DNA from: a virus
IMG/VR virus record: IMGVR_UViG_3300010391_000252
Location: 1 to 42,784 of that record
Direction: 5' to 3' (one strand)
Length of the DNA stretch: 42,784 nucleotides
Part shown: positions 3,440-40,772 of the stretch, piece by piece
How positions within the stretch are numbered: position 1 is the stretch's first letter
Layout of the letters: every line of letters starts with the position of its first letter
The notes under the pieces: model-generated
What the model saw: the letters and a program-made list of their open reading frames with translations, nothing else
What the model was told of the DNA's origin: nothing
The model's database searches: none
Made by a program: the position numbers and the translations under genes

Positions 3440-4753
3440 ATGCCGACAGAAGCCGCAATGCAGACCATGGGCACCCTGAGTGCAGACATCGTAGGAGTAT
3501 GGCTCCGCGACGAACTGCTGGAGCGTGCTGAGCGCGATCTCGTTTTCTGGGATTGCTGTGACAAGACGGAGCTACCCAAGGGTAACGGTTCCGTTGTCCA
3601 GTTCACCCGCTACGAGTACCTTGCCCTTCCCGAGGCTCCGATTGAGGAGGGGGTCACTCCAGCCCTGACAGCCATGACCATCTCTACGGTCCAGGCTATC
3701 GTGGACCAGTGGGGCGCGGTGGTTGGCATCACAGACCGGGCCGAAATGACGGTCAAGCATCCGACGATGCAGATTGCTCGGGACCTACTCTCTGACCAGA
3801 ACAAGCAGGTGTTGGATAGGGAAGTTCAGGTGGTGGCGATGGGTTCCACCGCGGTCTCCTTCGCCAACGGGAAGGCGTCGCGTGCAGCCCTCACGGCAGC
3901 CGATGTACTCCGTACTGACGACATCCGTCGCTCAGTGGCCACTCTTCGCTCCCAGGGGGCTCGCACCTACGAGCTCAATGCCTTCAAAGGTATCTTTGAT
4001 CCCTTTGTCGAAGGTGACATCTCCAAGGACCCGACTTTCATCAATGCGGGCGTGTACAGCAACCTCGTTACCCTCAAGGATTTCGAGGTTGGCAAATGGA
4101 TGGGTGTGCGTTGGATGAGGAGCAACCTCATCCCGATCCTCTCTGCTATGGCCGGTGCCGATGTAACCTACGCCGACCTGACGGGCGGTGGCATCCCAGC
4201 TGGTGCTGTTGCCTTCGACGCGGGCTCCACAGTCCGTACCAAGGTGACCCGCCTCGACCCAGCGACCAAGTTCGAGACGGTCATCGACAACGAAGAGGCC
4301 AACACGAACGTGGCAGCCTTCGCCACCGAGATCACCATCGCAGCGGTTGCGGCTACAGGCACCTACAAGATTTACTCGACGCTCCAGGATGGGGCCTCAG
4401 GTACGGCCACCTTCCAGCTTCGTGTGCGGCATACGAGCGGGGTGGCTAGCGTTATCATCCTCGTCAAGGGTGGTAGCGGCCTCCCGGCTGGGACCTTCGT
4501 GGTCGTTGGCACGGGTGGTGTAGCTCCGGCCGATACGGCCTCGGTCAACGTCCACATGACCTACATCATCGGGAAGGGAGCTCTAGGTGCCACGAAGCTT
4601 GGTGGCCTGGAGTCCTTCTTCATTCCGCGGAAGGCGACGGAGAGTGATCCGCTAGCTCAGCGTGCAAAGGCAAGCTGGAAACAGACGTGGAAGGCCCTCG
4701 TACTTAACCCCGACTTCATGCGACGCATCGAGTCAGCAAGCGACTTCAGCTAA
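3440..4753 (+). CDS. Major capsid protein, N4-gp56 family, with inserted beta-rich domain
   Basis: Forms the HK97-fold shell. The N-terminal half has the N4-gp56 pattern: a helix with WLRDELLERAERDLVFWD, a G-rich hairpin (PKGNGSVVQFTRYEYL), EAPIEEGVTP, then VQAIVDQWGAVVGITD and a long helix with LLSDQNKQVLDREVQ. The core resumes with the C-terminal segment SDPLAQRAKASWKQTWKAL. Between about residues 255 and 370 lies a Thr/Val/Gly-rich beta segment (for example TATFQLRVRHTSGVASVII) that looks like an Ig-like or decorating insertion. ATG start with the RBS caaggagc. At 437 residues it is longer than a bare N4-gp56 protein, as expected for an insertion. Confidence 0.85.
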   Translation: MPTEAAMQTMGTLSADIVGVWLRDELLERAERDLVFWDCCDKTELPKGNGSVVQFTRYEYLALPEAPIEEGVTPALTAMTISTVQAIVDQWGAVVGITDRAEMTVKHPTMQIARDLLSDQNKQVLDREVQVVAMGSTAVSFANGKASRAALTAADVLRTDDIRRSVATLRSQGARTYELNAFKGIFDPFVEGDISKDPTFINAGVYSNLVTLKDFEVGKWMGVRWMRSNLIPILSAMAGADVTYADLTGGGIPAGAVAFDAGSTVRTKVTRLDPATKFETVIDNEEANTNVAAFATEITIAAVAATGTYKIYSTLQDGASGTATFQLRVRHTSGVASVIILVKGGSGLPAGTFVVVGTGGVAPADTASVNVHMTYIIGKGALGATKLGGLESFFIPRKATESDPLAQRAKASWKQTWKALVLNPDFMRRIESASDFS

Positions 4754-5560: not shown

Positions 5561-6334
5561 ATGCCGGCCGTCTTCACTGGACGCTGGACGCGCGGCACGA
5601 TCATCACCCAGGCGCTTGAGCGGGTCGGCAACATCAAGACGAAGCACCTGTTGCGGGATCGGCTGAATCGCATTCTGGAAGAGCTCTACACCCAGTGGGA
5701 GTGGCCGTTCCTCTACAAGGTGTCGAGTGTGGCTTTCCCAAGTGGGAACACCGGGGGCCAACTTACCCTCTACGCTTCCTTCACCCTTCCCTCTGACTTC
5801 CTGAAGACCGAGACCGAGACCACGGGATTACGGATCGCTACCGTGGATGGGTTGGTCCGGGACTTCCCGGTGATTGAAGTAGACCCGATCTCGTTCAGGC
5901 GCCAGGCTATCCCGCATGATGCTGTGGGAGATGTGCCCCGAATTTGGTATCCATCGTATGCCGAGCGGATTGGGTACTTCTACCCAACACCGATGCAGGC
6001 AGCGATAGGGAACCTCGTCTACAAGTTCCTCCCTGCTGACCAGCCTATTGGATCAGGGAGCGATGCGGTCACCACGACCTACGATGCTGACATCCCTCTC
6101 TTCCCGTGGGGTGGCTACCTGTCCATGGAATGCGAGTACTGGGCCCGCCAGTACGACCAAGACCCTATGGCTCAGATGACTCGTCAGGACTGTAACAATT
6201 CCCTTGACATGATTCGCCAGGTTGCTCTTCCTCGCCAGTCCCAGGAGACGGTGCTCCCCCTTGACCCTCTCGTCTTCGGCCCCGGCTTCCGTTCCGAGGA
6301 GGACGGGTTCAGGGGCAGTGATTGGTGGAAGTAG
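5561..6334 (+). CDS. Head-to-tail adaptor (P22 gp4 / T7 gp11-like)
   Basis: The first ring of the short tail, docking under the portal. The 257-residue product begins with a helical segment (IITQALERVGNIKTKHLLRDR then LNRILEELYTQWEWPFL), the usual start of podovirus adaptor proteins, followed by a beta-rich part (FTLPSDFLKTETETTG, RIGYFYPTPM) and a C-terminal helix. Gene order capsid - small proteins - adaptor - nozzle supports the call. ATG at 5561 is nine bases after the previous stop. Confidence 0.75.
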   Translation: MPAVFTGRWTRGTIITQALERVGNIKTKHLLRDRLNRILEELYTQWEWPFLYKVSSVAFPSGNTGGQLTLYASFTLPSDFLKTETETTGLRIATVDGLVRDFPVIEVDPISFRRQAIPHDAVGDVPRIWYPSYAERIGYFYPTPMQAAIGNLVYKFLPADQPIGSGSDAVTTTYDADIPLFPWGGYLSMECEYWARQYDQDPMAQMTRQDCNNSLDMIRQVALPRQSQETVLPLDPLVFGPGFRSEEDGFRGSDWWK

Positions 6335-6343
6335 GAGGGTGCG

Positions 6344-8365
6344 ATGCCCTCCCCGAATGAGAAGGAGATCGTTCTTCGGAAGTTTGACGGGGTGGTGCTC
6401 CTGGTCGATCTTGCCTTCTTGGGACCAAGTTACCTTCGTAGTTCCCAGAACTGGATACCAGGGGAGACATATCGATTGACGAAGGCCCCAGGAAACACAG
6501 CGTATCCTGGAGGCAACATCGCAGGGCAGGATCGAGTACTCAAGCTGATCCGGGCGTACTCGGGGGCCAATCGATACCTGTATGCGGTGACCGACCCTAC
6601 GGCTGTCGGTGGAGACCAGCTCTGGGTCTCCATCAATGATGCGGCATGGGTACGAGTAGCCCTCTCGGGCGGGGGTGATGCTGACTTCGCTGGCTCCAGT
6701 CAGGTCTACGATATGGAGGTCCTCAACGGGATTCTCTATGTCGGGAATGGAGTGGACCCGATCTTTAGCATCCCGGTTGGAGGAACGGCTACGGCTCTTA
6801 CCACGATTGCATCCTTCACAGATGGGAGTGCTGCCCCGACACCCCAGACCCAAACCCTCAACTTCGCCCCTGAAGATACCCACGAGGAGATCATCCCCGG
6901 GACCTACTCTTACACATGGGCTATCTTCAACCATACGACAGATCGGTGGATTGAACGGGGACAGACTAGGGAGTTTACCCTCAACGACAACACCAACAAT
7001 GCACTCCAGTTTCCCGCTCCTACAGGAATGGCTAACGCATTGAGTGCTACGATTCGAGCCCATCTGTTTGTTGCCCCAATCAACCTCCCCATCGAGTTCG
7101 GTCATGACCAGAATCCTGAAGGTGTTGGGACGACGGGGGCCATGGCTCCACTCAACCTGCGAACCATCACTACCGATGGCCACCCACTCCCATTACGTGG
7201 GGTAGCACGTACTGGCCGCATCATGCGGGGGCATCTAAGCCGCTTGTGGATCAGTGGAGATCAAGCCGCTACCACTGCAGTATGGGCTACATACACCCTG
7301 GTCCCAGGGCTGGAGCAGGACATCTTCAACGCGGGGGTGTTCTTTCCGGTAAATGCGAGACTTCCCCGCACATTCGCGGATGTGACAGCCATCGGGCTTG
7401 CTAGCACGGGGTCTGACACCGGCCCGGAAGTCCCCATGGTCGTGTGCTCCCTCTCTGACACCTACCTGTTCTATGGGGACATACTGGATGATCCTAACGC
7501 TACTTGGCGGCAAGTCTCCCAGACCATCGGGTGTGTGAGTGCCGATACCTTCGTCGAGACTCCCATGGGATCGATCTTCCTTGGACTGGAAAGTGTTTAC
7601 ATGATCCCACCTGGGGGTGGACCACCACAGGATATCGGCTGGCCCATTCGACCAGCTGTCACTGCTATCCCATCTAACCAACGTACCCGATGTACGGCCC
7701 TCTATCACAAGGGGTTCTACAAGCTCGCGATCGTGCCTGCAGGACAGGCTACGGCCGTTCAACAGTGGTGGTTGGACCTGCGTCAAGGGATTGGGAATGT
7801 GCCATCATGGTGGGGGCCACACGTGCGAACAGCGGTCTCAACATGGTGTACGGCTGACCAGGACTCTGCGGAATCGGATCGAGGGTTCATGGCTGTGGAG
7901 GGTACTGGGATCATCGAGATGATCCACCAGCCCAATACGTTCACAGAGAATGTGGGGACCTCCACACTCATCTCGATCCTAACGACAGGGGACTTGGACG
8001 ATGGGCGGCCCTTCGATCGGAAGATGTTTTGTCGGGTCAGGGTAACGGGGTTCCCTGGGGATGCCACGAGCTTGCAGGTGCAGCTTAGTGTGGATGGGCT
8101 GATCCCCACTCCCATGGATGCCATGACTCTTGTGGCTCCCGGGGGTGCCATCTGGAATGTAGACCAATGGAACGTAGGTCAATGGGCACAGGCAGGGGCT
8201 ACGGAAGGGGAAAGTGTGTGTCCGAGTAACCGACCGAGGGGTAGGGCAGCGTCGGTTCAGTTGATTCACAGCCAGTCTGTGGCTTTGGCTCTCCGTGATT
8301 TCGAACTGCGTTACCTGCCCGTCCCACGCCCCGTCCGTCTCCTCGCCAACGACTCCCGGAGCTAG
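6344..8365 (+). CDS. Tail nozzle / DNA-stabilisation protein (P22 gp10-like)
   Basis: A 673-residue beta-rich protein, the right size and place for the podovirus nozzle that closes the tail channel below the adaptor. It shows repeated propeller-like strands (VYDMEVLNGILYVGNGVDPI, GIIEMIHQPNTF), an embedded immunoglobulin-like stretch (GTYSYTWAIFNHTTDRWIERG) and a C-terminal barrel region (FCRVRVTGFPGDATSLQVQL). Early residues WIPGETYRLTKAPGNTAYPG resemble the start of gp10-type proteins. Start ATG at 6344 behind gtaggagggtgcg. Confidence 0.75.
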   Translation: MPSPNEKEIVLRKFDGVVLLVDLAFLGPSYLRSSQNWIPGETYRLTKAPGNTAYPGGNIAGQDRVLKLIRAYSGANRYLYAVTDPTAVGGDQLWVSINDAAWVRVALSGGGDADFAGSSQVYDMEVLNGILYVGNGVDPIFSIPVGGTATALTTIASFTDGSAAPTPQTQTLNFAPEDTHEEIIPGTYSYTWAIFNHTTDRWIERGQTREFTLNDNTNNALQFPAPTGMANALSATIRAHLFVAPINLPIEFGHDQNPEGVGTTGAMAPLNLRTITTDGHPLPLRGVARTGRIMRGHLSRLWISGDQAATTAVWATYTLVPGLEQDIFNAGVFFPVNARLPRTFADVTAIGLASTGSDTGPEVPMVVCSLSDTYLFYGDILDDPNATWRQVSQTIGCVSADTFVETPMGSIFLGLESVYMIPPGGGPPQDIGWPIRPAVTAIPSNQRTRCTALYHKGFYKLAIVPAGQATAVQQWWLDLRQGIGNVPSWWGPHVRTAVSTWCTADQDSAESDRGFMAVEGTGIIEMIHQPNTFTENVGTSTLISILTTGDLDDGRPFDRKMFCRVRVTGFPGDATSLQVQLSVDGLIPTPMDAMTLVAPGGAIWNVDQWNVGQWAQAGATEGESVCPSNRPRGRAASVQLIHSQSVALALRDFELRYLPVPRPVRLLANDSRS

Positions 8366-15774: not shown

Positions 15775-16163
15775 CTCTCCCTTACCTTCCTCCTCACATA
15801 ATCAGGCTCTAACCCCAATCCCTCGCATACCGACACGAACGACCCGGCCCACGCTGGGTCATCAGATTCGATCCATGCCCTAGCCTCTATACGTCTCCGG
15901 GACTTGATGCCGGGTTCAGGTCTGCCCCCATTATTACCAGTACCACCAGGGAACCGCTTGACAGCCCCTTCTCGCCCCACCAACCGAATGTCCACAGTAC
16001 CGGGTAAGGCATCCATCAGAGCACACGTCAAGATGGCATAGAAGAGTCGTTTCTCCCCGGACCATGATGTTGAAGTGTCAAGTTGACCAGGGAGTAGCCC
16101 TTCTGGCTGTAAGAGGGCATCGGTGACGCCATAATCTACGCCTGTGAATGCCTTAACATTCAT
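15765..16163 (-). CDS. Conserved small replication-region protein, 132 aa
   Basis: Start ATG 16163 has GGAG about eight bases upstream, inside the end of the polymerase gene. The product includes SGEKRLFYAILTCALMDAL, then RRRIEARAWIESDDPAWAGSF and VCEGLGLEPDYVRRKVRERW. The EA-x-WI-x-SDD ... F-x-x-VCE-x-LGL-x-P-x-x-VR pattern recurs in small phage and prophage proteins of unknown function; the C-terminal part looks like a small helix-turn-helix. Lies between polymerase and exonuclease genes. Confidence 0.65.
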   Translation of the reverse strand: MNVKAFTGVDYGVTDALLQPEGLLPGQLDTSTSWSGEKRLFYAILTCALMDALPGTVDIRLVGREGAVKRFPGGTGNNGGRPEPGIKSRRRIEARAWIESDDPAWAGSFVSVCEGLGLEPDYVRRKVRERWE

Positions 16164-18717
16164 TCTCAAACTCCTCTCTGGAAGGTAAGAGCTTCCATTC
16201 CTTCATGTCTAGCCAGTTACGGCCTACCTTGATCCCTATCGGCATAGCCATGGACCAGGGACCACCAGCGCCGGGGTAGGTTCGTTCGACACCCATTCCC
16301 TCACTGAGATACCTGGCGATGTCGTAGGCATGCTTAGGGAGGCTTGTGACGTTCAGGGAGTCGTGGCCCTGTTGCACGATGTTGGCACCAGGGAACATCC
16401 CCTTGGTGATGTCCTCGCTGAGAGGTACGAAGCCTAGACGGTTGGTGATGACCCCCACCTCATGCTGGGGTAGCTCCGCATACCCTTCCTTGTAGTCTTC
16501 CTTGGACAGGCGTAACCCCTTGAAGTAGTACCGTCTCCCCCAGCTAGACTCTAGGTACCCTAGTTCTATCATCTGCTGGCGCACCCACGCATGGTAGCGG
16601 CCGAGCCCTGGGGTACTCGCATGCAGCCGTGCTAGCCATTCTGTACATTCATCAGGGTCCAACACCACAGCACCCTCCGTCTCGACAAGGGTGATCTCGG
16701 CCATCCGCGGGCCCTCCATGCCGTAGTTGGCGGCATGACGAACCCGCTTGCCGAGCTGGCGTTGCTCCATGGCCTCGGAGTCACCAGCTTGGTAGGCCGC
16801 AATGAGCTCATCATACTCCCGCTCGAATATCTTGGAGGCATTGAGGATGTGCTGGTCCATCTCGGTCGGCAACATCCGAGCTAACCTCTGGAGTTCGGGG
16901 TCTCCTGTCATGCCATCGACGATGCGGGATTCCCCTTGTGACTGGTCTACCTCTACCAGCACATGACCAGGGTTCGCTATGAACATCTTGCGGAGGTCAG
17001 AGTGGCGGTCTCGGTTCTGGGCGTTGATACCCTCTACCTTGGAGATTGCTGACGATCGCAGGCGCCCCGTCTTGGCGGTAGGAGTATACCGTGATCGCAT
17101 ACGACCATCCTTGCTTACGATGGTTTCTCTGAGCTCTTGAAGAATCTTCGCATGGCCCCGGTAGCCCAAGACCAACTGGCCCATGGGCTTCGCCTTCTTG
17201 TACTTCCGCATGAGGCGACGGATGGCGAGCTCGTCAGCGGTACGGTTGCTAGTCCCCCGGCGATAGAAGGGCTTACACTTGAGGGTGTCATAGAAGTAGG
17301 AGGTGACCCGGGGTCCCGACAACCCCTTCTCCGCCACCAAGTCTATCCCTGCCATGGTCATCATGTCGGATCGATGTTGGGCTACCAGAGCCTTCTCCCG
17401 TAGCTCCATGGCATGGCGAGCTTGGTTATCCACGGCGAACCCCACCTGTGTCAGGTGCAGGCATGCGGTAGAGAGTCTTCGGTAATGGTCTCGGTAGACA
17501 GGCATAAGCCCCTGCGCCCGAAGCTGACCCCAGTATTGCTCGTCGGGGTTACCGATCAATGCACGGGTCCTGCTCACATCCTTCCCGTTGTACGTAAGAA
17601 ACTGGGGCCGGTCCTTGGTTCGCTTGCCAGGCTTGCCATCCTCCTTGGCCTCCGTCTTCCAGAACTTCACACGGAGGTCTCGGGATGCACAGTAGGCAAG
17701 GGTGTGCTGATCCCTAGGGTCCAAACAGTGATGCATTTGATGGGAGTCCCAGCGAGAGTTGTTAACTGTCTTCCCTTTCGCCCACAATACGTAGAGATCA
17801 TACAGTCCAAAATGCCAGCCCTTGGCGATGGGATGGGCTAGCAACCTCCCAACTGTTTTCCACCAGCCCTTGTCGGCGTGTAGGTCGAAGGTCATGGAGA
17901 AGTCAGGGGTAAGGGAGAACCCGATACAGTCAACTACCTTTCCATGCGCCACCGTCTCGATGTCACACGCCAACACCGCTGCACGGGAATCCTTCTGGTA
18001 GGTCTGATGCACTAGCATCTCGAAATGGTGTGCATCCTTCTGTGTCGGGTCGATCATGTGGTGGCAGCGAGGATCGAGCCTCAACTCGGGGAAGTTCTTG
18101 TCCCCGAGGATACGAAGCCAGTCGCTTTGCCACACATCGAAAGCATCTCCAGCTCGCAAGACGAATGCAGGATGGAAGGTCGGTATCACCTTGACCCGTG
18201 TACCAGAATTGGTACGTGCCCAGAAGATACTCCCTCGCCAGTTGTGAATCTTGTCCCGCCAGTCGATGATCTTGCCTTGGGGAGTGGCCTTCAACTTCCA
18301 GGTCCCCTTCTTGGTCACAGGTAAAGGGGTGCGTCGAAGGGTATTGAGAGCTAGGTTGCCCATCGGGATGACCACGGTGGGTGATAGATTCTCTAGCCGC
18401 CTCCAGAAGTCCTCCTGCCACTTGGCCACAGTAGCCGGAGTTAGCCTATGCACCGTGTTCTCGGGAGGTCTGACCTCCCCCACGTTCTCGATCCTCACAT
18501 GCTCCCGACGTAAGCCCATCATGGTGAGGCCGGCGAACTTGGTGGGGCCTGTGTAGTCCCGCCCCTCGAAAAGGAACCGGCCCGAGGTCCCTACGAAGGG
18601 CTCCCCGGCTGCGTCCTCTTCCTTCCCGGGCATCTCTCCCACTAACAGCACCGGGGCGCCGGTCGGGCCCACACCCGATACGCGGCGTCCTGTGATACCA
18701 GAGAAGGGGGTTTTCAT
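16153..18717 (-). CDS. UDG-like domain / 3'-5' exonuclease / family A DNA polymerase
   Basis: The replicative polymerase, 854 residues. N-terminal ~205: uracil-DNA glycosylase family 4-like fold (LLVGEMPGKEEDAAGEPFVG, VGEVRPPENTV, FHPAFVL) without visible Fe-S cysteines. About 245-400: proofreading exonuclease with Exo I CDIET, Exo II GWHFGLYDLYVL and Exo III YNGKDVSRTR. The rest is a PolA palm/fingers: motif A EVDQSQGESRIVDG, O-helix motif B GKRVRHAANYG, motif C QGHDSLNV. Motif C reads HDS instead of the usual HDE. A UDG-like domain in front of a family A polymerase is known from phage SPO1. Start: ATG at 18717 sits in the HNH stop (TGATG), so translation is coupled to that gene. Confidence 0.93.
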   Translation of the reverse strand: MKTPFSGITGRRVSGVGPTGAPVLLVGEMPGKEEDAAGEPFVGTSGRFLFEGRDYTGPTKFAGLTMMGLRREHVRIENVGEVRPPENTVHRLTPATVAKWQEDFWRRLENLSPTVVIPMGNLALNTLRRTPLPVTKKGTWKLKATPQGKIIDWRDKIHNWRGSIFWARTNSGTRVKVIPTFHPAFVLRAGDAFDVWQSDWLRILGDKNFPELRLDPRCHHMIDPTQKDAHHFEMLVHQTYQKDSRAAVLACDIETVAHGKVVDCIGFSLTPDFSMTFDLHADKGWWKTVGRLLAHPIAKGWHFGLYDLYVLWAKGKTVNNSRWDSHQMHHCLDPRDQHTLAYCASRDLRVKFWKTEAKEDGKPGKRTKDRPQFLTYNGKDVSRTRALIGNPDEQYWGQLRAQGLMPVYRDHYRRLSTACLHLTQVGFAVDNQARHAMELREKALVAQHRSDMMTMAGIDLVAEKGLSGPRVTSYFYDTLKCKPFYRRGTSNRTADELAIRRLMRKYKKAKPMGQLVLGYRGHAKILQELRETIVSKDGRMRSRYTPTAKTGRLRSSAISKVEGINAQNRDRHSDLRKMFIANPGHVLVEVDQSQGESRIVDGMTGDPELQRLARMLPTEMDQHILNASKIFEREYDELIAAYQAGDSEAMEQRQLGKRVRHAANYGMEGPRMAEITLVETEGAVVLDPDECTEWLARLHASTPGLGRYHAWVRQQMIELGYLESSWGRRYYFKGLRLSKEDYKEGYAELPQHEVGVITNRLGFVPLSEDITKGMFPGANIVQQGHDSLNVTSLPKHAYDIARYLSEGMGVERTYPGAGGPWSMAMPIGIKVGRNWLDMKEWKLLPSREEFENEC

Positions 18718-19169
18718 CAACGAGACCGCCGCGCTGCCCGTCGATACTCACACAACTTACAACTTCTATTCTTTTTCAGGTTTTCTATGGTGCGTCTGTG
18801 TCCTCGCAAGCAATATAATTGACGAGGCCGCTTCGCCAACGCTCGACGGTTATTCTCTGCCGTACTAGTCGCGTCTAGGTGTTGGGGATTGACACAGCTA
18901 CGATTGCTGCACAGATGGTCCACAACCTCTTGCGGCTTCAGTTCCCGGTTGAAGAACTGAAAGGCCCACCTATGGGCTGAGACCATGCCATTCAACCAAA
19001 ATCTACCATATCCGGCCCGGTTCTTCCCGATCCACGCCCAACATCCACGGGTTACGCGAACATGAGACATGAACCGGGCAAGAACCGGATTCCGGTATTG
19101 CCGACAGTGGGAACATCGGTATTGCACCAACCGACGCCCCGTTATTCCGCTGAAAGGTGTGAGAGCCAT
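18717..19169 (-). CDS. HNH endonuclease whose N-terminus copies that of the polymerase
   Basis: A 150-residue homing-type nuclease: CSHCRQYRNP, a beta-beta segment GCWAWIGKNRAGYGRFWLNG, the HNH core AHRWAFQFFNRELKPQEVVD-HLCSNRSCVNPQHLDATS and a C-terminal zinc motif (CLRGHRRTIENLKKNRSCKLC). Residues 4-13, TPFSGITGRR, are identical to residues 3-12 of the polymerase that follows, but the codons differ at nine of ten positions. Stop overlaps the polymerase start by one base. This suggests that the gene arrived carrying the 5' end of a diverged polymerase gene. Confidence 0.88.
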   Translation of the reverse strand: MALTPFSGITGRRLVQYRCSHCRQYRNPVLARFMSHVRVTRGCWAWIGKNRAGYGRFWLNGMVSAHRWAFQFFNRELKPQEVVDHLCSNRSCVNPQHLDATSTAENNRRALAKRPRQLYCLRGHRRTIENLKKNRSCKLCEYRRAARRSR

Positions 19170-19183
19170 CAGCGGGCAGCTGT

Positions 19184-19336
19184 CTACTTACTCGCCTTCT
19201 TCAACTTCTCCACGATGGCATCCTTGATGAATGACATCTGGGTGACATCCACCTTGACACAGTGGAGCTTGAGAGCTCGACAGACCTCTCGTGGTAGACG
19301 GGTTGCTAGGACTGTGTAGTTGATTTCCGTTGCCAT
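19184..19336 (-). CDS. Ribbon-helix-helix (Arc/CopG-like) protein, 50 aa
   Basis: Reads MATEINYTVLATRLPREVCR then ALKLHCVKVDVTQMSFIKDA and a Lys-rich helix. A single strand (INYTVLATRLP), helix A (REVCRALKLHCVKV), turn and helix B (QMSFIKDAIVEKL) match RHH DNA-binding dimers. Located between the ssDNA-binding-like and HNH genes; probably a local transcription regulator. Confidence 0.7.
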   Translation of the reverse strand: MATEINYTVLATRLPREVCRALKLHCVKVDVTQMSFIKDAIVEKLKKASK

Positions 19337-19339
19337 GGC

Positions 19340-19924
19340 CTATTCCTCGTCCTCGTCATCGGTGCCGGTGCGCTTGGCAGGAGTAGGTGTCTCCTCCTCA
19401 TCCGTCACCGCGGCCTTCTTCTTGAGGGATGTCACCTTCCCCTTGGGCTTTCGTGCTCCCTTCTCCTCGGCCTCCCCGATCTCTGGGGCATCCTCGTCGC
19501 TGGGCCGGTAGGCCTTGCCCGGCCGATTTCGGATGTTGTCCTCATCGTCGAGTTTGGCACTGACAGATGCGATGAACTGGTTACCAGCCGCAGCCTCCAT
19601 CCACTCCTCATCGTCCTCGGACAACGGGGTACCTGAGCGAAGTAGGACACGCTTGAGTTTACCCGGGCCCTTCTCGCTCCCCTCGGTCCAGGTCCCCTTC
19701 TCTTTGGCGAGCGGGTCTGTCTCGGTCCCCACCACGATCCAGTCACGGAGCATGAAGCCCGCGTACTTCTTCGGCTCCACGATCTTGTAGTCCATGACAT
19801 ACATCCGCAGACCTTTCTCCTTGGTCTTCGAACGCTCGATACTGGTGATCTCCAGTAAGGCGCCTGTCAGGGCCTTGATAGACCCCGACTGCTCCTCGGT
19901 CTCCTCGAAAAACGATTTGCCCAC
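19340..19924 (-). CDS. Probable single-stranded DNA-binding protein
   Basis: 194 residues with a beta-rich front (GALLEITSIERSKTKEKG, RMYVMDYKIVEPKKYAGFML, RDWIVVGTETDP) followed by a low-complexity charged tail ending in an acidic stretch (DEEETPTPAKRTGTDDEDEE). An OB-like beta domain with a flexible acidic C-terminus, beside a RecA-like ATPase and a polymerase, is the usual picture of a phage SSB (DUF669/DUF2815-like in position). Identity rests on architecture and synteny. Confidence 0.6.
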   Translation of the reverse strand: MGKSFFEETEEQSGSIKALTGALLEITSIERSKTKEKGLRMYVMDYKIVEPKKYAGFMLRDWIVVGTETDPLAKEKGTWTEGSEKGPGKLKRVLLRSGTPLSEDDEEWMEAAAGNQFIASVSAKLDDEDNIRNRPGKAYRPSDEDAPEIGEAEEKGARKPKGKVTSLKKKAAVTDEEETPTPAKRTGTDDEDEE

Positions 19925-35208: not shown

Positions 35209-36473
35209 GGCTCGCCCTCGTACTCTTGCTAGCGTTGGTCGGGGGTGTCCATGCCGACACCATCCACGAGGCAGGTCTTCACGTGTGGCCCTTTGGCCAG
35301 ATGCGGATTGGTCCCCTTCAGTTTGCGGACCTCCTTTCTCCCTGCAAAAGTGGGACAGAGACCTACTGCTCCGATTGCAATCAGACTGATCCATGTACAG
35401 GTGGCGGAACCGGAGCGTGGTCCCAGTGCATCAACGGGACATGGTCCTGTGTATCTGGCGTGGGAGGTGGAAGTGGCAATGTCACCGGGAATGGCCCCGT
35501 GATGATTGGGGAGATTGCGGTCTTCTGTAACCCCTTCGGTACATGTATCGAGGGTATTGGGGTTCCTGGTCTCTGTAGTACCAACACCGAAGCAGCGCGA
35601 GGCGTGGATACCTTTGGAGCGGCGGATGGGTGCCATGAGGTTGCGGATGGAGATGGTGCGGGTGCGGCTACCTCCCTCAACCTCACCGTTGACCCTGCCA
35701 ACTGCACACCACCAGACCTCGCGGTGGGGATCGACGTAACGGGAGCAGCTCAGTGCGTCTCGTCAACTACGACGACATCAACCACTACGACCACCACTAC
35801 AACCACCACTACAACCACCACACTTACCCCCAGCGGTGATGGCTTAGGCTTCCATTCCAACCGCTGGTACGTCAACAAAGAGTCTTCTGGCGCTGGAAGT
35901 TCTTCGCGCACCTTTCCCGCAGGCTTAGGATTCATGTGCTTGTTTCAGCTAGATGGTCGCGTCCATACTTTTAACAAGATTGGGGTACGCTCAGGGGCAA
36001 CTGTAGGGAATGATACAATCCTAGGCATATACCTGATAGACCCTGACGATATGTCAGTAGATGCCATTCTTGTTGATTCTGGCGTGTTGGCTGCAGGGAA
36101 CGCCGCCTCGTCTACCTTTACTGAAGCTACGATAAGCTTTACGACCACCGCGGCACAGACGTTAATCGGCTTAGCAGTCGTAAATGTAGAAGCAGCCGCA
36201 ACTACAATCTTTTCTATTGGAACGGGAGGGGGACAACACTCTCCTGGTATGCTAGGAGCTAACCACCCCTCACAACTTGCAGCGGCAGGGGGCGAAGGTG
36301 CAACAGGTGCTGGAACAGCGATTCCTAATAATTGCTACGGTGTTACCGGGCAACAGGGAGCAACAGCATTACCGTCGGTAGGAAGTTGGATTCTACTCAA
36401 CACTTCAACGCATTCCCCTTTGACATTCTCCGACACCGGCGCTGTCTGGATTCGTGCTTTATCGACACCGTAG
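35202..36473 (+). CDS. Exported fibre-like protein with poly-threonine linker
   Basis: GTG at 35202 overlaps the preceding stop region; the frame is open further up but that part is out-of-frame shadow of the previous gene. The 423-residue product starts with a clear signal peptide (MLRLALVLLLALVGGVHA), then a Cys/Gly-rich domain, a linker of 18 Thr with one Ser (about 187-205; TTTTSTTTTT...), then a ~215-residue beta-rich head (FNKIGVRSGATVGNDTILGI, TLIGLAVVNVEAAATTIFSI). DNA after the linker is markedly more A/T-rich. A receptor-binding or surface adhesin role is likely. Confidence 0.6.
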   Translation: MLRLALVLLLALVGGVHADTIHEAGLHVWPFGQMRIGPLQFADLLSPCKSGTETYCSDCNQTDPCTGGGTGAWSQCINGTWSCVSGVGGGSGNVTGNGPVMIGEIAVFCNPFGTCIEGIGVPGLCSTNTEAARGVDTFGAADGCHEVADGDGAGAATSLNLTVDPANCTPPDLAVGIDVTGAAQCVSSTTTTSTTTTTTTTTTTTTTLTPSGDGLGFHSNRWYVNKESSGAGSSSRTFPAGLGFMCLFQLDGRVHTFNKIGVRSGATVGNDTILGIYLIDPDDMSVDAILVDSGVLAAGNAASSTFTEATISFTTTAAQTLIGLAVVNVEAAATTIFSIGTGGGQHSPGMLGANHPSQLAAAGGEGATGAGTAIPNNCYGVTGQQGATALPSVGSWILLNTSTHSPLTFSDTGAVWIRALSTP

Positions 36474-36477
36474 CCCT

Positions 36478-37236
36478 ATGACCCAAGGCCTCCGCCTAGA
36501 CCTTCCCCCTGGCGAGGAACACCGCTTGAGGGCCGTATCGCGCCTCCGAGCTATCCGTGCCGCCAACGAGGAGAAATACGCTGCCCACCCCTGGCCCTTT
36601 CTCTGTGAAGCCGTCTACACTTTCGATCCCTTCGCAAACGAGCAAGGGGGCGGGATTCACAAGTACCCTGGGGACTCCATCAAGGACCCCTCACCCTCGT
36701 GTGACTGTCGAGAGGGCGGCTGTATCAACTACCTTGAGCATGTCGTCAACGTCTGGTTCGCTAACACCCGTACTGCCTGGCCCAAGTCCCGACGGTTAAT
36801 TACGTCGTGGACCATGATCGCTCTCCACGTGTGGCTCGCCCGCTACCGACCCGGCCAGGTGATAGCGTTCGTCTCTCGCAAGCAAGGCCAAAACGAGGAT
36901 GAAGGGGCCGCCGAGCTCGTCAAGCGTGCTCGGTTCATCGAGGATCACCTCCCTGCGGAGGTCCAGCCTCGTGAGACCAAGCGTACGTGGTGCCGGACGT
37001 GGTACTCTCACAACAACTCGACGATCTTGGGGGTAGCTCAGGGAGCGGACCAGCTAAGACAGTTAGCAATCTCAGCTTGGTTCGGGGACGAGTTTGCGTT
37101 CTGGGAGGCCGCTGCGACAACATACGCAGCTAGCATACCAGCGTTAGAGGGCGGCGGGAGAGTTACTTTGGTATCTACTGCTAATCCTAGCTTTTTTAAG
37201 CAACTGGTGATGGATGAGTGGCATACAGGTACATAA
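36478..37236 (+). CDS. Large terminase subunit, N-terminal ATPase half
   Basis: Powers DNA packaging. 252 residues: adenine-binding region, deviant Walker A (TRTAWPKSRRLITSW, ~98-112), a helix with DEGAAELVKRARFIEDHLP, Walker B AWFGDEFAFWE (D204-E205) and coupling motif VTLVSTANPSFF (~229-240). It stops at MDEWHTGT, exactly where family members continue into the linker and nuclease domain, found 2.6 kb downstream at 39804. Start ATG 36478; an upstream GTG at 36454 would overlap the previous gene. Confidence 0.85.
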   Translation: MTQGLRLDLPPGEEHRLRAVSRLRAIRAANEEKYAAHPWPFLCEAVYTFDPFANEQGGGIHKYPGDSIKDPSPSCDCREGGCINYLEHVVNVWFANTRTAWPKSRRLITSWTMIALHVWLARYRPGQVIAFVSRKQGQNEDEGAAELVKRARFIEDHLPAEVQPRETKRTWCRTWYSHNNSTILGVAQGADQLRQLAISAWFGDEFAFWEAAATTYAASIPALEGGGRVTLVSTANPSFFKQLVMDEWHTGT

Positions 37237-37685
37237 TGGGACGACCTAAGGGTAGTTGGAAGGGAAAAGCGAACCCACGGTGGGCTGATGGGATTAGGTA
37301 CACCAACGGCTACCGAATACGGTATTGCCCCGACCATCCTTATGAAGTTGAGGGGTACGTTCCCGAGCATCGTTTGATTGCTGAGTGGGCATTAGGTCGG
37401 GTATTGGCCCCCATCAACCAAATCCACCATGTCAACGAGGTCAAGGATGATAACAGCCCTGGGAACCTTGTAGTATGTGAAGACCAGGCTTACCACTACC
37501 TCCTACACACGCGAGCGAGGGCAGTCCGAGCAGGCTTCCCTGCCCCCTACCGTCGTTGTCCTTACTGCAAGAGGTACGATGACCCGGTTGGAATGCGACC
37601 TAGATGCGGTGGGCGCGTCTATGCCCACCAGAAATGTCATGCCGCCTACGAGTTGGCCCGGTACCACCGATGTCAGGCAGCCTAA
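37236..37685 (+). CDS. HNH homing endonuclease at the left end of the cassette
   Basis: Starts inside the terminase stop (TAATGG). 149 residues: GRPKGSWKGKANPRWADGIR, YVPEHRLIAEWALGR, then NQIHHVNEVKDDNSPGNLVV (HH...N...NL, HNH_3 pattern) and a C-terminal zinc finger (CPYCKRYDDPVGMRPRCGGR, HQKCH). Typical of intron- or intergenic homing enzymes. Confidence 0.88.
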   Translation: MGRPKGSWKGKANPRWADGIRYTNGYRIRYCPDHPYEVEGYVPEHRLIAEWALGRVLAPINQIHHVNEVKDDNSPGNLVVCEDQAYHYLLHTRARAVRAGFPAPYRRCPYCKRYDDPVGMRPRCGGRVYAHQKCHAAYELARYHRCQAA

Positions 37686-38122: not shown

Positions 38123-38452
38123 ATGGCTGCAACGCTTAGCGCTACCGGAACCTGGACCAACCTCTCGACCGTCCTTGACGCAACCCGCTCCAACCTGATT
38201 GGGAATGAGCCCCGTCTTGAGGGTGCCAAGGGTGCCGCTCCCGGTGGCCTCGGTGTCAACTTCGACGTGCTGAAGACGATGGAGGGAGTAGAATTCCCCG
38301 AGCTCAAGCAGTTCATCCAGCTCGTGGCTACCCAGTATGGCCTCTTCTACTGGCCCGCCGCAGCCCTGGTAGACTTCTTCCTCCGGGCCCTCAAGTCAAC
38401 AAAGTCTGACACGGTCCTGGGCGACGAGAACGGCGCCCGGGTCTTCCCGTAA
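38123..38452 (+). CDS. Structural-like protein, 109 aa
   Basis: Strong site aggaggcctcctct before ATG. MAATLSATGTWTNLSTVLDA, then FPELKQFIQLVATQYGLFYW. Its first residues (M-x-A-x-x-SA-x-GTW-x-x-L) match the next gene, so the two may be paralogues. Likely a small virion protein. Confidence 0.6.
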   Translation: MAATLSATGTWTNLSTVLDATRSNLIGNEPRLEGAKGAAPGGLGVNFDVLKTMEGVEFPELKQFIQLVATQYGLFYWPAAALVDFFLRALKSTKSDTVLGDENGARVFP

Positions 38453-38461
38453 GGAGCCATC

Positions 38462-38782
38462 ATGCCAGCCGCCATTTCAGCATCAGGTACGTGGTCCGCC
38501 CTCGACGATCAGAACCCCCCCTCGCAGGCCCCTGGCGCCAATGTCAACGAAGTCCTGCGAGTCCATCGGGATACCGTGGAGCAGCACTTCCAGCCCCGCT
38601 CCCTCGATTACATGCAGTATCCCAACGACGTGGACGGTCACCAGGAAGTGATGCAATTCGTGGGGCTCTTCGCCGCAGGTTACGCTATCGACTCGGCCGC
38701 TGCCTTGACCCGCATCCGAGACATCCTCGAGAGCTTCCAGAATACCGAACAGCTCCCTGAGCGTCGGGTTTACGAACCGTAG
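38462..38782 (+). CDS. Structural-like protein, 106 aa, possible paralogue
   Basis: MPAAISASGTWSALDDQNPP, then VDGHQEVMQFVGLFAAGYAI and DSAAALTRIRDILES. Shares the N-terminal M-x-A-x-x-SA-x-GTW pattern and a helix-hairpin C-terminal half with the preceding gene. Confidence 0.6.
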   Translation: MPAAISASGTWSALDDQNPPSQAPGANVNEVLRVHRDTVEQHFQPRSLDYMQYPNDVDGHQEVMQFVGLFAAGYAIDSAAALTRIRDILESFQNTEQLPERRVYEP

Positions 38783-39110: not shown

Positions 39111-39308
39111 ATGAACCTTCCCACCCTCACGCGTGGGCTTGTGATCGGCACCGTAGCCCTTTGGGTCGCCTGGGACATCGTTGCTATCGTGCGTGGGGGC
39201 TACGAGGCTAGCGAGACAGCGCAGATTAGACGGTGGAGTAGGTACCCGATGGTTCCTTTTGGGATTGGATTGGTTGTTGGCCATCTTCTATGGCAAAGTT
39301 GCCCATGA
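39111..39308 (+). CDS. Small membrane protein, 65 aa
   Basis: MNLPTLTRGLVIGTVALWVA then WDIVAIVRGGYEAS and a second helix MVPFGIGLVVGHLLW. Two membrane helices around a charged loop, resembling holin-like or antiholin proteins of phages. Stop overlaps the HNH-AP2 start (ATGA). Confidence 0.55.
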   Translation: MNLPTLTRGLVIGTVALWVAWDIVAIVRGGYEASETAQIRRWSRYPMVPFGIGLVVGHLLWQSCP

Positions 39309-39802
39309 GCCCCAAGAATACATACACCATGCTGCCTGGTAAATTGGTTCAGATTGCTCTGACACAGGGGTTCTCAGCGTTGATAAACTTGGTGGACCTG
39401 CCTCTGGTTGCGCCGTATCGCTGGTGTGTCTCATCCGTAAAGGGCAGACACTATGCACGGTGTTATGGGAAAAAGCGGCAATATATGCACCGTCTTATCT
39501 TGGTGACTAGCGAAGTGGATCACCGCAATGGTGATGGGCTAGACAATCGACGGTGTAACTTGCGGAAAGCAACTCACCGGCAGAACATGCAGAATAGTAG
39601 CTGTCGTTCTCATAACAAGAGTGGTTATAAGGGTGTGGTATTTGATGAGAGTCGGAGCCTTTTCCGTGCCACGATTAGGGTGGATGGAAAGCAGCGGCAT
39701 CTAGGTCGTTTCCCGACCGCCGACGAAGCAGCACGAACTTACGACAAGGTGGCGAAGGCTGTATTTGGTGTTTACGCTCGTCCGAACTTCTTGGATTCCT
39801 AA
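39305..39802 (+). CDS. HNH-AP2 homing endonuclease at the right end of the cassette
   Basis: 165 residues: beta N-terminus (GKLVQIALTQGFSALINLVD), HNH core (MHRLILVTSEVDHRNGDGLD then NRRCNLRKATHRQNMQN) and a C-terminal AP2-type DNA-binding domain (SGYKGVVFDESRSLFRATIR, VDGKQRHLGRFPTADEAART). This class is typical of group I introns and free homing genes. It ends one base (G) before the ATG of the terminase nuclease half. Confidence 0.9.
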   Translation: MSPKNTYTMLPGKLVQIALTQGFSALINLVDLPLVAPYRWCVSSVKGRHYARCYGKKRQYMHRLILVTSEVDHRNGDGLDNRRCNLRKATHRQNMQNSSCRSHNKSGYKGVVFDESRSLFRATIRVDGKQRHLGRFPTADEAARTYDKVAKAVFGVYARPNFLDS

Positions 39803-39803
39803 G

Positions 39804-40772
39804 ATGGTTAGGCACCCGAGACCAGGTGTGGAGCAGTGGGTCAATGCCCGGAATGGGTTGACCGTGGTCAAGCTCCACTACACTTGTGATCCTCGCAAGC
39901 GTACAGTCGTATGGAAGGCCCAAGCCTCAGCAAACATGCACCCGCGGGCATGGAGACGCGAGTACGAAATCGACTGGGCCTCCCCCGCTGGTGAACCTGT
40001 CACCCCCGAGTATGCCGAGGAGACCCATTGTCGAGCCTTCGACTGGGACCTCAAGTTGCGACTCCTTCGTTTCTGGGACTTCGGCTTCGTCTCACCGGTA
40101 TGTCTGTTTGCGCAGCTTACACTGTTCGGTCAACTGCGGGTGCGTCGGGAGTTGTGCCCTTTTAACACCCCCCTCGACCAACTCATCCAAGGTATGGAAG
40201 CCATCACCCTAGACCTTGGTGGCTACGACGCTATCCTCGCCCGTATGGATGCATGGGACGTGGGTGGAGCTGATCCTGTCACCCCTGCAGCCTTCGACGC
40301 AGGGGACCCCTCAGGGAAAAACCATACAGACCTGGGGTGTAGTGCTGAGGTCCTAGGGGAGAAGGGGATCACTCTCCACACGACCCGTCCCGGTACCGAG
40401 GTCTCCTACGCCAACCTCCGTGGACGCCTCCTTCGCCATGTTATGGAGCCTGCGGTGGGTCCCGTCCCTGCCCTCATCATTCACCCTGACTGCCACAACC
40501 TCCGTAGCGCTCTTGCTGGTGCCTTTCACTTAGGGCCTCTCCCTCCACACAAGCCCGTCAAGACCCATCCTGAGGGGGACTTGGTTGACGCGTTACGTTA
40601 TGGCGAAGACAACATCCGCCAACTGGTTGGTGGCCAAGCCAGCATACAGATGCGGCAAATGGCCATGGGGGACGTGCGGGAGCTTCGGGCCATTGACGGG
40701 CCAGCCTCCCAGGGAGACACTTGGGCAGATCGTCAACGAGAGAAGTGGGTTACACTCATCGAAGGAATGTAG
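39804..40772 (+). CDS. Large terminase subunit, C-terminal nuclease half
   Basis: 322 residues from ATG 39804 (no Shine-Dalgarno; TTG at 39765 is an alternative). Begins MVRHPRPGVEQWVNARNGLT and VVKLHYTCDPRKR, the linker that normally follows the ATPase domain, then REYEIDW, the nuclease motifs LLRFWDFGFVSPVC (D~92), FDAGDPSGKN (D~166/169) and PEGDLVDALRYG. Together with 36478-37236 it makes a full-length TerL of about 574 residues with no obvious missing segment. Whether the halves work as separate chains or are joined by splicing is not decided by sequence. Confidence 0.85.
   Translation: MVRHPRPGVEQWVNARNGLTVVKLHYTCDPRKRTVVWKAQASANMHPRAWRREYEIDWASPAGEPVTPEYAEETHCRAFDWDLKLRLLRFWDFGFVSPVCLFAQLTLFGQLRVRRELCPFNTPLDQLIQGMEAITLDLGGYDAILARMDAWDVGGADPVTPAAFDAGDPSGKNHTDLGCSAEVLGEKGITLHTTRPGTEVSYANLRGRLLRHVMEPAVGPVPALIIHPDCHNLRSALAGAFHLGPLPPHKPVKTHPEGDLVDALRYGEDNIRQLVGGQASIQMRQMAMGDVRELRAIDGPASQGDTWADRQREKWVTLIEGM

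Follow-up and report, generated by a model that had tools for sequence, protein, structure and literature searches.

An HNH endonuclease gene whose product begins with the N-terminus of the DNA polymerase encoded next to it raises the question of how one gene came to carry the start of another, and which of the two starts is the original. We examined this arrangement in an IMG/VR record of one virus, a stretch of 42,784 bases referred to here as the window, and in related polymerase loci.

The polymerase locus and its HNH gene

The features of the locus are listed in Table 1. In Pfam searches, the polymerase displayed an N-terminal UDG domain (PF03167, E=2.4e-17) and a family A polymerase domain (PF00476, E=1.4e-22). 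The HNH protein matched HNH_3 (PF13392) with E=3.8e-9 and 36.5 bits, above the curated cut-off of 24.8, and the only Pfam families above cut-off in this protein were HNH_3 and zf-His_Me_endon. Its match to phrog_826 (E=3.4e-32) runs from residue 17 on. GC3 is 0.55 in the HNH body versus 0.70 in the polymerase. In a structural model of the HNH protein based on a four-sequence alignment (mean pLDDT 69.8), residues 1-14 had pLDDT values below 50, in keeping with a passenger leader at the predicted N-terminus.

Table 1 Features of the polymerase locus, with positions in the window
Feature	Position	Strand	Remarks
HNH gene	18717-19169	-	ORF 19169->18717, begins MALTPFSGITGRRLVQY
UDG-PolA fusion polymerase (target gene)	16153-18717	-	ATG 18717, begins MKTPFSGITGRRVSGVGP
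HNH codons 1-13, MALTPFSGITGRR	19131..19169	-	polymerase-derived leader
HNH endonuclease body (HNH_3, zinc-binding region)	18717..19130	-	PF13392, phrog_826
TGATG, overlap of HNH stop and polymerase start	18715..18719	-	TGA 18719-18717, ATG 18717-18715, one base common
Polymerase codons 1-12, MKTPFSGITGRR	18682..18717	-	second copy, other codons
Small upstream gene (50 aa)	19184..19336	-	E=4e-5 to L010 3802-3990
Conserved upstream neighbour	19340..19924	-	60% identical in L010; anchors the gene order of the empty locus

The HNH gene is a separate ORF outside any intron or intein, as are free-standing phage homing endonuclease genes of the mob-like kind. An intein was rejected because the HNH frame stops ahead of the polymerase start. 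A group I intron was also rejected, as there was no Rfam match in the window; a search for intron RNA at a relaxed threshold across 18300-19500 gave nothing meaningful.

Two diverged copies of the polymerase start

The decapeptide TPFSGITGRR is present near the N-termini of both proteins, and is followed by LVQY.. in the HNH protein and by VSGV.. in the polymerase. The HNH copy (19160-19131, codons 4-13) reads ACA CCT TTC AGC GGA ATA ACG GGG CGT CGG, and the polymerase copy (18711-18682, codons 3-12) reads ACC CCC TTC TCT GGT ATC ACA GGA CGC CGC. A codon alignment agreed with an earlier, sequence-only reading of the window in that nine of the ten codons differ and that every change is synonymous; at the nucleotide level, 11 of 30 positions differ and 19 are identical. 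Allowing up to three mismatches, PFSGITGRR is encoded at just these two sites in the window. It was encoded in none of 2.9 million viral contigs, a set that may lack the records nearest the window. Chance cannot account for an exact ten-residue match between neighbouring N-termini, and we therefore regard the two as copies of common descent.

The sequence-only reading had also suggested that recoding might protect the resident site from the nuclease. Under the codon usage of the phage itself, the probability that at least nine of ten codons differ is 0.11. The difference is thus at the level of saturation and an extra recoding force is not needed; recoding beyond saturation is unsupported. The pattern is nevertheless compatible with a polymerase site that would be shielded from cleavage by its altered codons. 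Reading positions 18719-18715 directly confirmed the overlap of the HNH stop with the polymerase start. The overlap likely reflects translational coupling, and translation of the polymerase may, as had been proposed, depend on the HNH gene.

An HNH-free relative of the window

An HNH-free relative, with which the sequence-only reading had called for comparison, does exist. This relative, L010 (IMGVR_UViG_3300037479_000127), was detected by an alignment-based scan, the sole kind of search that recovered relatives, and its polymerase is 64% identical to that of the window at the amino acid level. Scanning viral and bacterial contigs with either protein alone, polymerase or HNH, found no relatives, a DNA similarity search of the region against GenBank phages gave no match, and no close relative of the window besides L010 was found in sets that may lack its nearest records. 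The genes neighbouring the L010 polymerase are those of the window but without the HNH gene, and a search of the L010 record for a relative of the HNH protein found none. Taking into account that synteny is otherwise the same, the HNH gene of the window is an insertion between the small upstream gene and the polymerase.

The L010 polymerase starts MKTPWGSARGRRVGGIGP from a GTG codon located 10 nt past the small upstream gene. An HNH-free polymerase starting MALTPFSGITGRR, which had been anticipated, was thus not found in L010, the sole HNH-free relative of the window. The DNA at the L010 start, which is strongly diverged, matches the HNH copy at 16 of 30 positions and the polymerase copy at 13 of 30, a weak lean towards the HNH copy. 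In its first residues, the native MKTP start of L010 resembles the polymerase copy of the window and not the MALTP start of the HNH copy.

An insertion read against an empty site

A second case allowed comparison of an insertion with an empty site. The names of two contigs, L069 and L071, bear one metagenome number, 3300020045. L071 has no insert, and its intact polymerase, starting MRVRGVGPIPSRI, is 93% identical to that of L069 at the protein level. The flanks of the two are collinear, with 85-86% identical DNA on both sides. L069 harbours an HNH gene (PF13392, E=3.8e-10) that begins ATG CGT GTA AGG GGA GTA GGG CCG ATA CCA TCA CGT ATT. This front copy, the HNH N-terminus, is identical to the native polymerase start of L071 at 37 of 39 nucleotides, and identity over 51 nt is 94%. 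The TGA of the HNH gene overlaps the TTG of the polymerase, which restarts as TTG AGA GTA CGC GGA GAG GGG CCA GTT CCG GCT AGA GTG. Only 22 of these 39 nucleotides match the native start, versus 28-36 of 39 in each of the next ten 39-nt blocks, indicating a sharp break within the L069 polymerase gene. These matches revealed that the HNH gene was inserted past polymerase codon 11-13 and holds the native start, and that the polymerase start is new and foreign. L069 and L071 together thus display an empty site, a native front copy and a foreign rear copy. The substitute start of L069 is closest to the native start of a diverged relative, L126 (29 of 39 nucleotides), a resemblance suggesting that it was brought in from a diverged polymerase and not recoded on the spot.

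By analogy with this pair, we infer that the direction of the swap in the window is the same as in L069. The HNH leader is then probably the displaced native polymerase start, and polymerase codons 1-12 are probably the substitute. Concerning the earlier proposal that the HNH gene was imported along with the 5' end of a diverged polymerase gene, the polymerase origin of the leader stands, as does the view that the copies are diverged polymerase alleles and not a recent duplication. The direction of the swap is probably the reverse of the one proposed.

Apart from this, L071 contains an additional 86-aa ORF (3735-3995) that separates the methyltransferase gene upstream from the polymerase and is not found in L069, and the DNA 5' of the polymerase is thus variable in further ways.

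A survey of related polymerase loci

For each of 166 related polymerase loci, a set that includes a few contigs twice, the DNA upstream was scanned for a copy of the N-terminus of that locus's own polymerase. Three matches were obtained, L042, the window and L069, all of them metagenome contigs, with scores of 68, 52 and 50, respectively; all other loci scored 33 or lower. L042, an independent third case, has as its insert a gene of 220 aa resembling DNA methyltransferases (phrog_757, E=8e-23) that begins MTRGVYTHVPSEGPKNAKIIL, and the polymerase after it starts MKGVYTHVPSEGPKDAKIVLLGE with an ATGA overlap. HNH_3 was sought in the L042 record without a match, and searches of L069 and L042 with Rfam found no intron RNA. 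With its methyltransferase cargo, L042 extends the architecture beyond nucleases and makes a non-homing origin possible. The peptides of L069 and L042 differ from each other, each matching its own polymerase.

As controls, 10 other HNH genes were compared with the start of the gene that follows; nine belong to cultured phages, and the tenth precedes another UDG-polymerase gene, in L029. Scores were 11-24 and no similarity was observed. With these genes lacking a match and the decapeptide absent from the 2.9 million contigs, the peptide does not appear to be a general HNH motif; its occurrence in many unrelated HNH proteins is what the sequence-only reading had named as evidence against a polymerase origin. 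In a mismatched-locus control, in which every pair scoring at least 44 was listed, few pairs reached 50 or more. The high-scoring pairs outside the three cases corresponded to shared upstream DNA (in a non-coding frame) or to stop-bearing fragments, and none of the pairs scoring at least 44 outside the three cases was a copied polymerase start. In L026, nearly identical DNA at 7521-7570 and 8055-8110 encodes GKRNMKTNEVVNT near the starts of two neighbouring ORFs. With DNA this similar, the repeat is simply a recent duplication and differs from the diverged copies of the three cases.

Other elements in the window and its relatives

The two other HNH genes of the window (37236-37685 and 39290-39802) had no copy of their neighbours' ends at their starts. 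They lie at the two edges of a split in the large terminase gene, which is divided into ORFs 36454-37236 and 39804-40772 with about 2.5 kb of other genes between them; the gene at 39290-39802 also encodes an AP2 domain. The same split is present in the L010 phage (L191 4519-5370 and 6902-7870), where neither of these two HNH proteins matched, and the split therefore predates their genes. Within the split, the window harbours a tandem paralog pair (38123-38452 and 38462-38782; MAATLSATGTW.. and MPAAISASGTW..) that is kept in the relative (L191 6227-6562 and 6572-6895).

Among the related polymerases, L129 (2501-5875) contains an apparent intein (CITGDHEVLTPEGW..VTGNT). The polymerase ORFs of L042, L047 and L064 end (at 5715, 5845 and 5872, respectively) at one conserved point, ..NLQN(L/I)KR or NMQNLKR. 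Some element probably intervenes at this point, where a search with Rfam found no intron. At around 926 in L060, some 1.9 kb before the polymerase, ECRPEGPTPPNFR followed by a stop may be what remains of a polymerase N-terminus, or may be due to chance.

A proposed 5'-end-swapping homing element

The window itself shows the duplication, the divergence of the copies, the overlap and the HNH family of the inserted protein. Our best reading, which we consider rather probable, is that a mobile HNH gene inserts in the 5' coding end of the polymerase gene as a 5'-end-swapping homing element. The nuclease would recognize and cut the native 5' region of the polymerase gene, and repair using an element-bearing genome as the template would install the element. 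At one end, the nuclease frame would be fused in frame to the first ~13 native polymerase codons, taking over the start codon and the translation signals of the native gene. The other end would bring a substitute for the first ~12 polymerase codons, derived from a diverged polymerase, whose start codon overlaps the nuclease stop so that the polymerase could be produced by coupled re-initiation. As the substitute spells an almost unchanged peptide with different DNA, the target site would not be rebuilt and the element's own genome would be spared. Such an element would require neither an intron nor an intein. We infer that the nuclease cuts the native site, that the substitute resists cutting, that translation is coupled and that the element is mobile.

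We considered four other explanations for the arrangement. In the direction originally proposed, the HNH gene came already fused to a foreign, diverged polymerase 5' end and landed upstream of an intact resident polymerase gene. The MKTP start of L010 agrees with this, as does the position of the insertion upstream of a complete gene, but in L069, read against L071, it is the front copy that is native and the rear copy that is foreign, and each of the three front copies holds the native-start position behind the upstream gene. We thus consider a pre-fused gene unlikely. A somewhat better, still doubtful candidate is illegitimate recombination that placed the gene preceding a donor polymerase, together with the donor start, into the recipient, with the swap as a by-product and no homing. 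The methyltransferase-like insert of L042, whose contig yielded no HNH_3, can be explained in this manner, and since this insert is not a nuclease, insertion there may not need homing. A short overlap of polymerase and HNH coding sequence at the L069 junction (..CGTATTTGG) also favours such an event. On the other hand, HNH nucleases account for two of the three inserts, other mobile elements also strike the polymerases of relatives (the intein of L129), and the reading frames are open at both ends.

If the 5' end had simply been duplicated in tandem and had then drifted at synonymous sites, with constraint at the protein level, codons at saturation with the amino acids kept would be accounted for. 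However, this would demand changes in nine of ten codons without a single amino acid change, AGC/TCT serine among them. The front copy of L069 is still identical to the native start at 37 of 39 nucleotides, indicating that divergence did not accumulate after insertion, and the two copies of the genuine duplication in L026 hardly differ in their DNA. We consider this explanation highly improbable. Finally, identical amino acids encoded by different codons could have arisen by convergence, if the peptide were a functional motif needed by both proteins, such as a partner-binding tag. The peptides of L069 and L042 are different and each fits its own polymerase, the L069 front copy is native polymerase DNA, residues 1-14 of the window HNH protein lack a confident model, and the motif is absent from other viral contigs. 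Convergence is contradicted by L069 and L071, and we give it almost no credence.

Relation to known systems

The proposed 5'-end-swapping homing element recalls the WHO elements of Torulaspora and Lachancea yeasts, for which FBA1 is the homing target and which exchange its 3' end for one that confers resistance (PMC7282813). In both, an endonuclease gene lies beside an essential target gene with a diverged duplicate end, and no splicing is involved. A nuclease gene adjoining a target with a duplicated, diverged end occurs in the window and L069, and displacement of the native end relative to an empty allele is observed for L069 against L071. Whereas WHO elements act at the 3' end and have their own transcription, here the 5' end is swapped, with in-frame use of the native start and a stop/start restart. 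The WHO nuclease is intein-related with a zinc finger and found in yeast, in contrast to the HNH_3 protein of a phage (PMC7282813). The phage elements would thus operate in the manner of WHO elements, yet they fall outside the WHO family.

Fungal mitochondrial mobile ORFs (Glomus atp6, atp9, cox2 and nad3, and Allomyces atp6) bring a foreign 3' end with mostly synonymous differences, and the native end is likewise displaced by an endonuclease ORF (PMC3630166). They differ in acting mostly at the 3' end, in mitochondria, and in using LAGLIDADG or GIY-YIG nucleases (PMC3630166). Mitochondrial introns of Tremella fuciformis carry a diverged N-terminal duplicate of the host gene, for which partial gene exchange was proposed (PMC7315562). 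Those cases are annotated as introns, whereas the insert in the window is ~450 bp, nearly all of it ORF, with no intron RNA detected. Free-standing phage endonucleases, such as T4 mob/seg and Aeh1 mobE in nrdA, split genes into two polypeptides or reside intergenically (PMC2988022). The window resembles these in having an HNH gene at or in an essential replication gene with overlapping start and stop codons, but the review of the T4-type endonucleases describes no substitute start that rescues the invaded gene (PMC2988022). Synthetic home-and-rescue gene drives combine a nuclease with a re-coded rescue of the end of an essential target gene; these are engineered, CRISPR-based, applied in insects and directed at the 3' end (PMC7968924). 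In the literature covered, which was partial, we found no phage 5'-end-swapping element, and the intron-less, 5'-end form in phages looks like a new variant of end-swapping elements.

Implications for phage genes

We see an even chance that phages bear a class of splicing-free invaders of the 5' coding end of essential genes, in which a nuclease, or another cargo such as a methyltransferase, is placed on the native start and a diverged, cleavage-resistant substitute rescues the gene, the whole amounting to a natural home-and-rescue drive and a mirror image of the yeast WHO elements. If true, end replacement would be a third route, besides introns and inteins, by which a homing gene can reside inside an essential phage gene and leave it functional, and a selfish gene would obtain expression, from the native start, and safety, from the altered target, in a single step. 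Engineered home-and-rescue drives would then have a natural counterpart, and the first codons of phage genes may differ in ancestry from the remainder.
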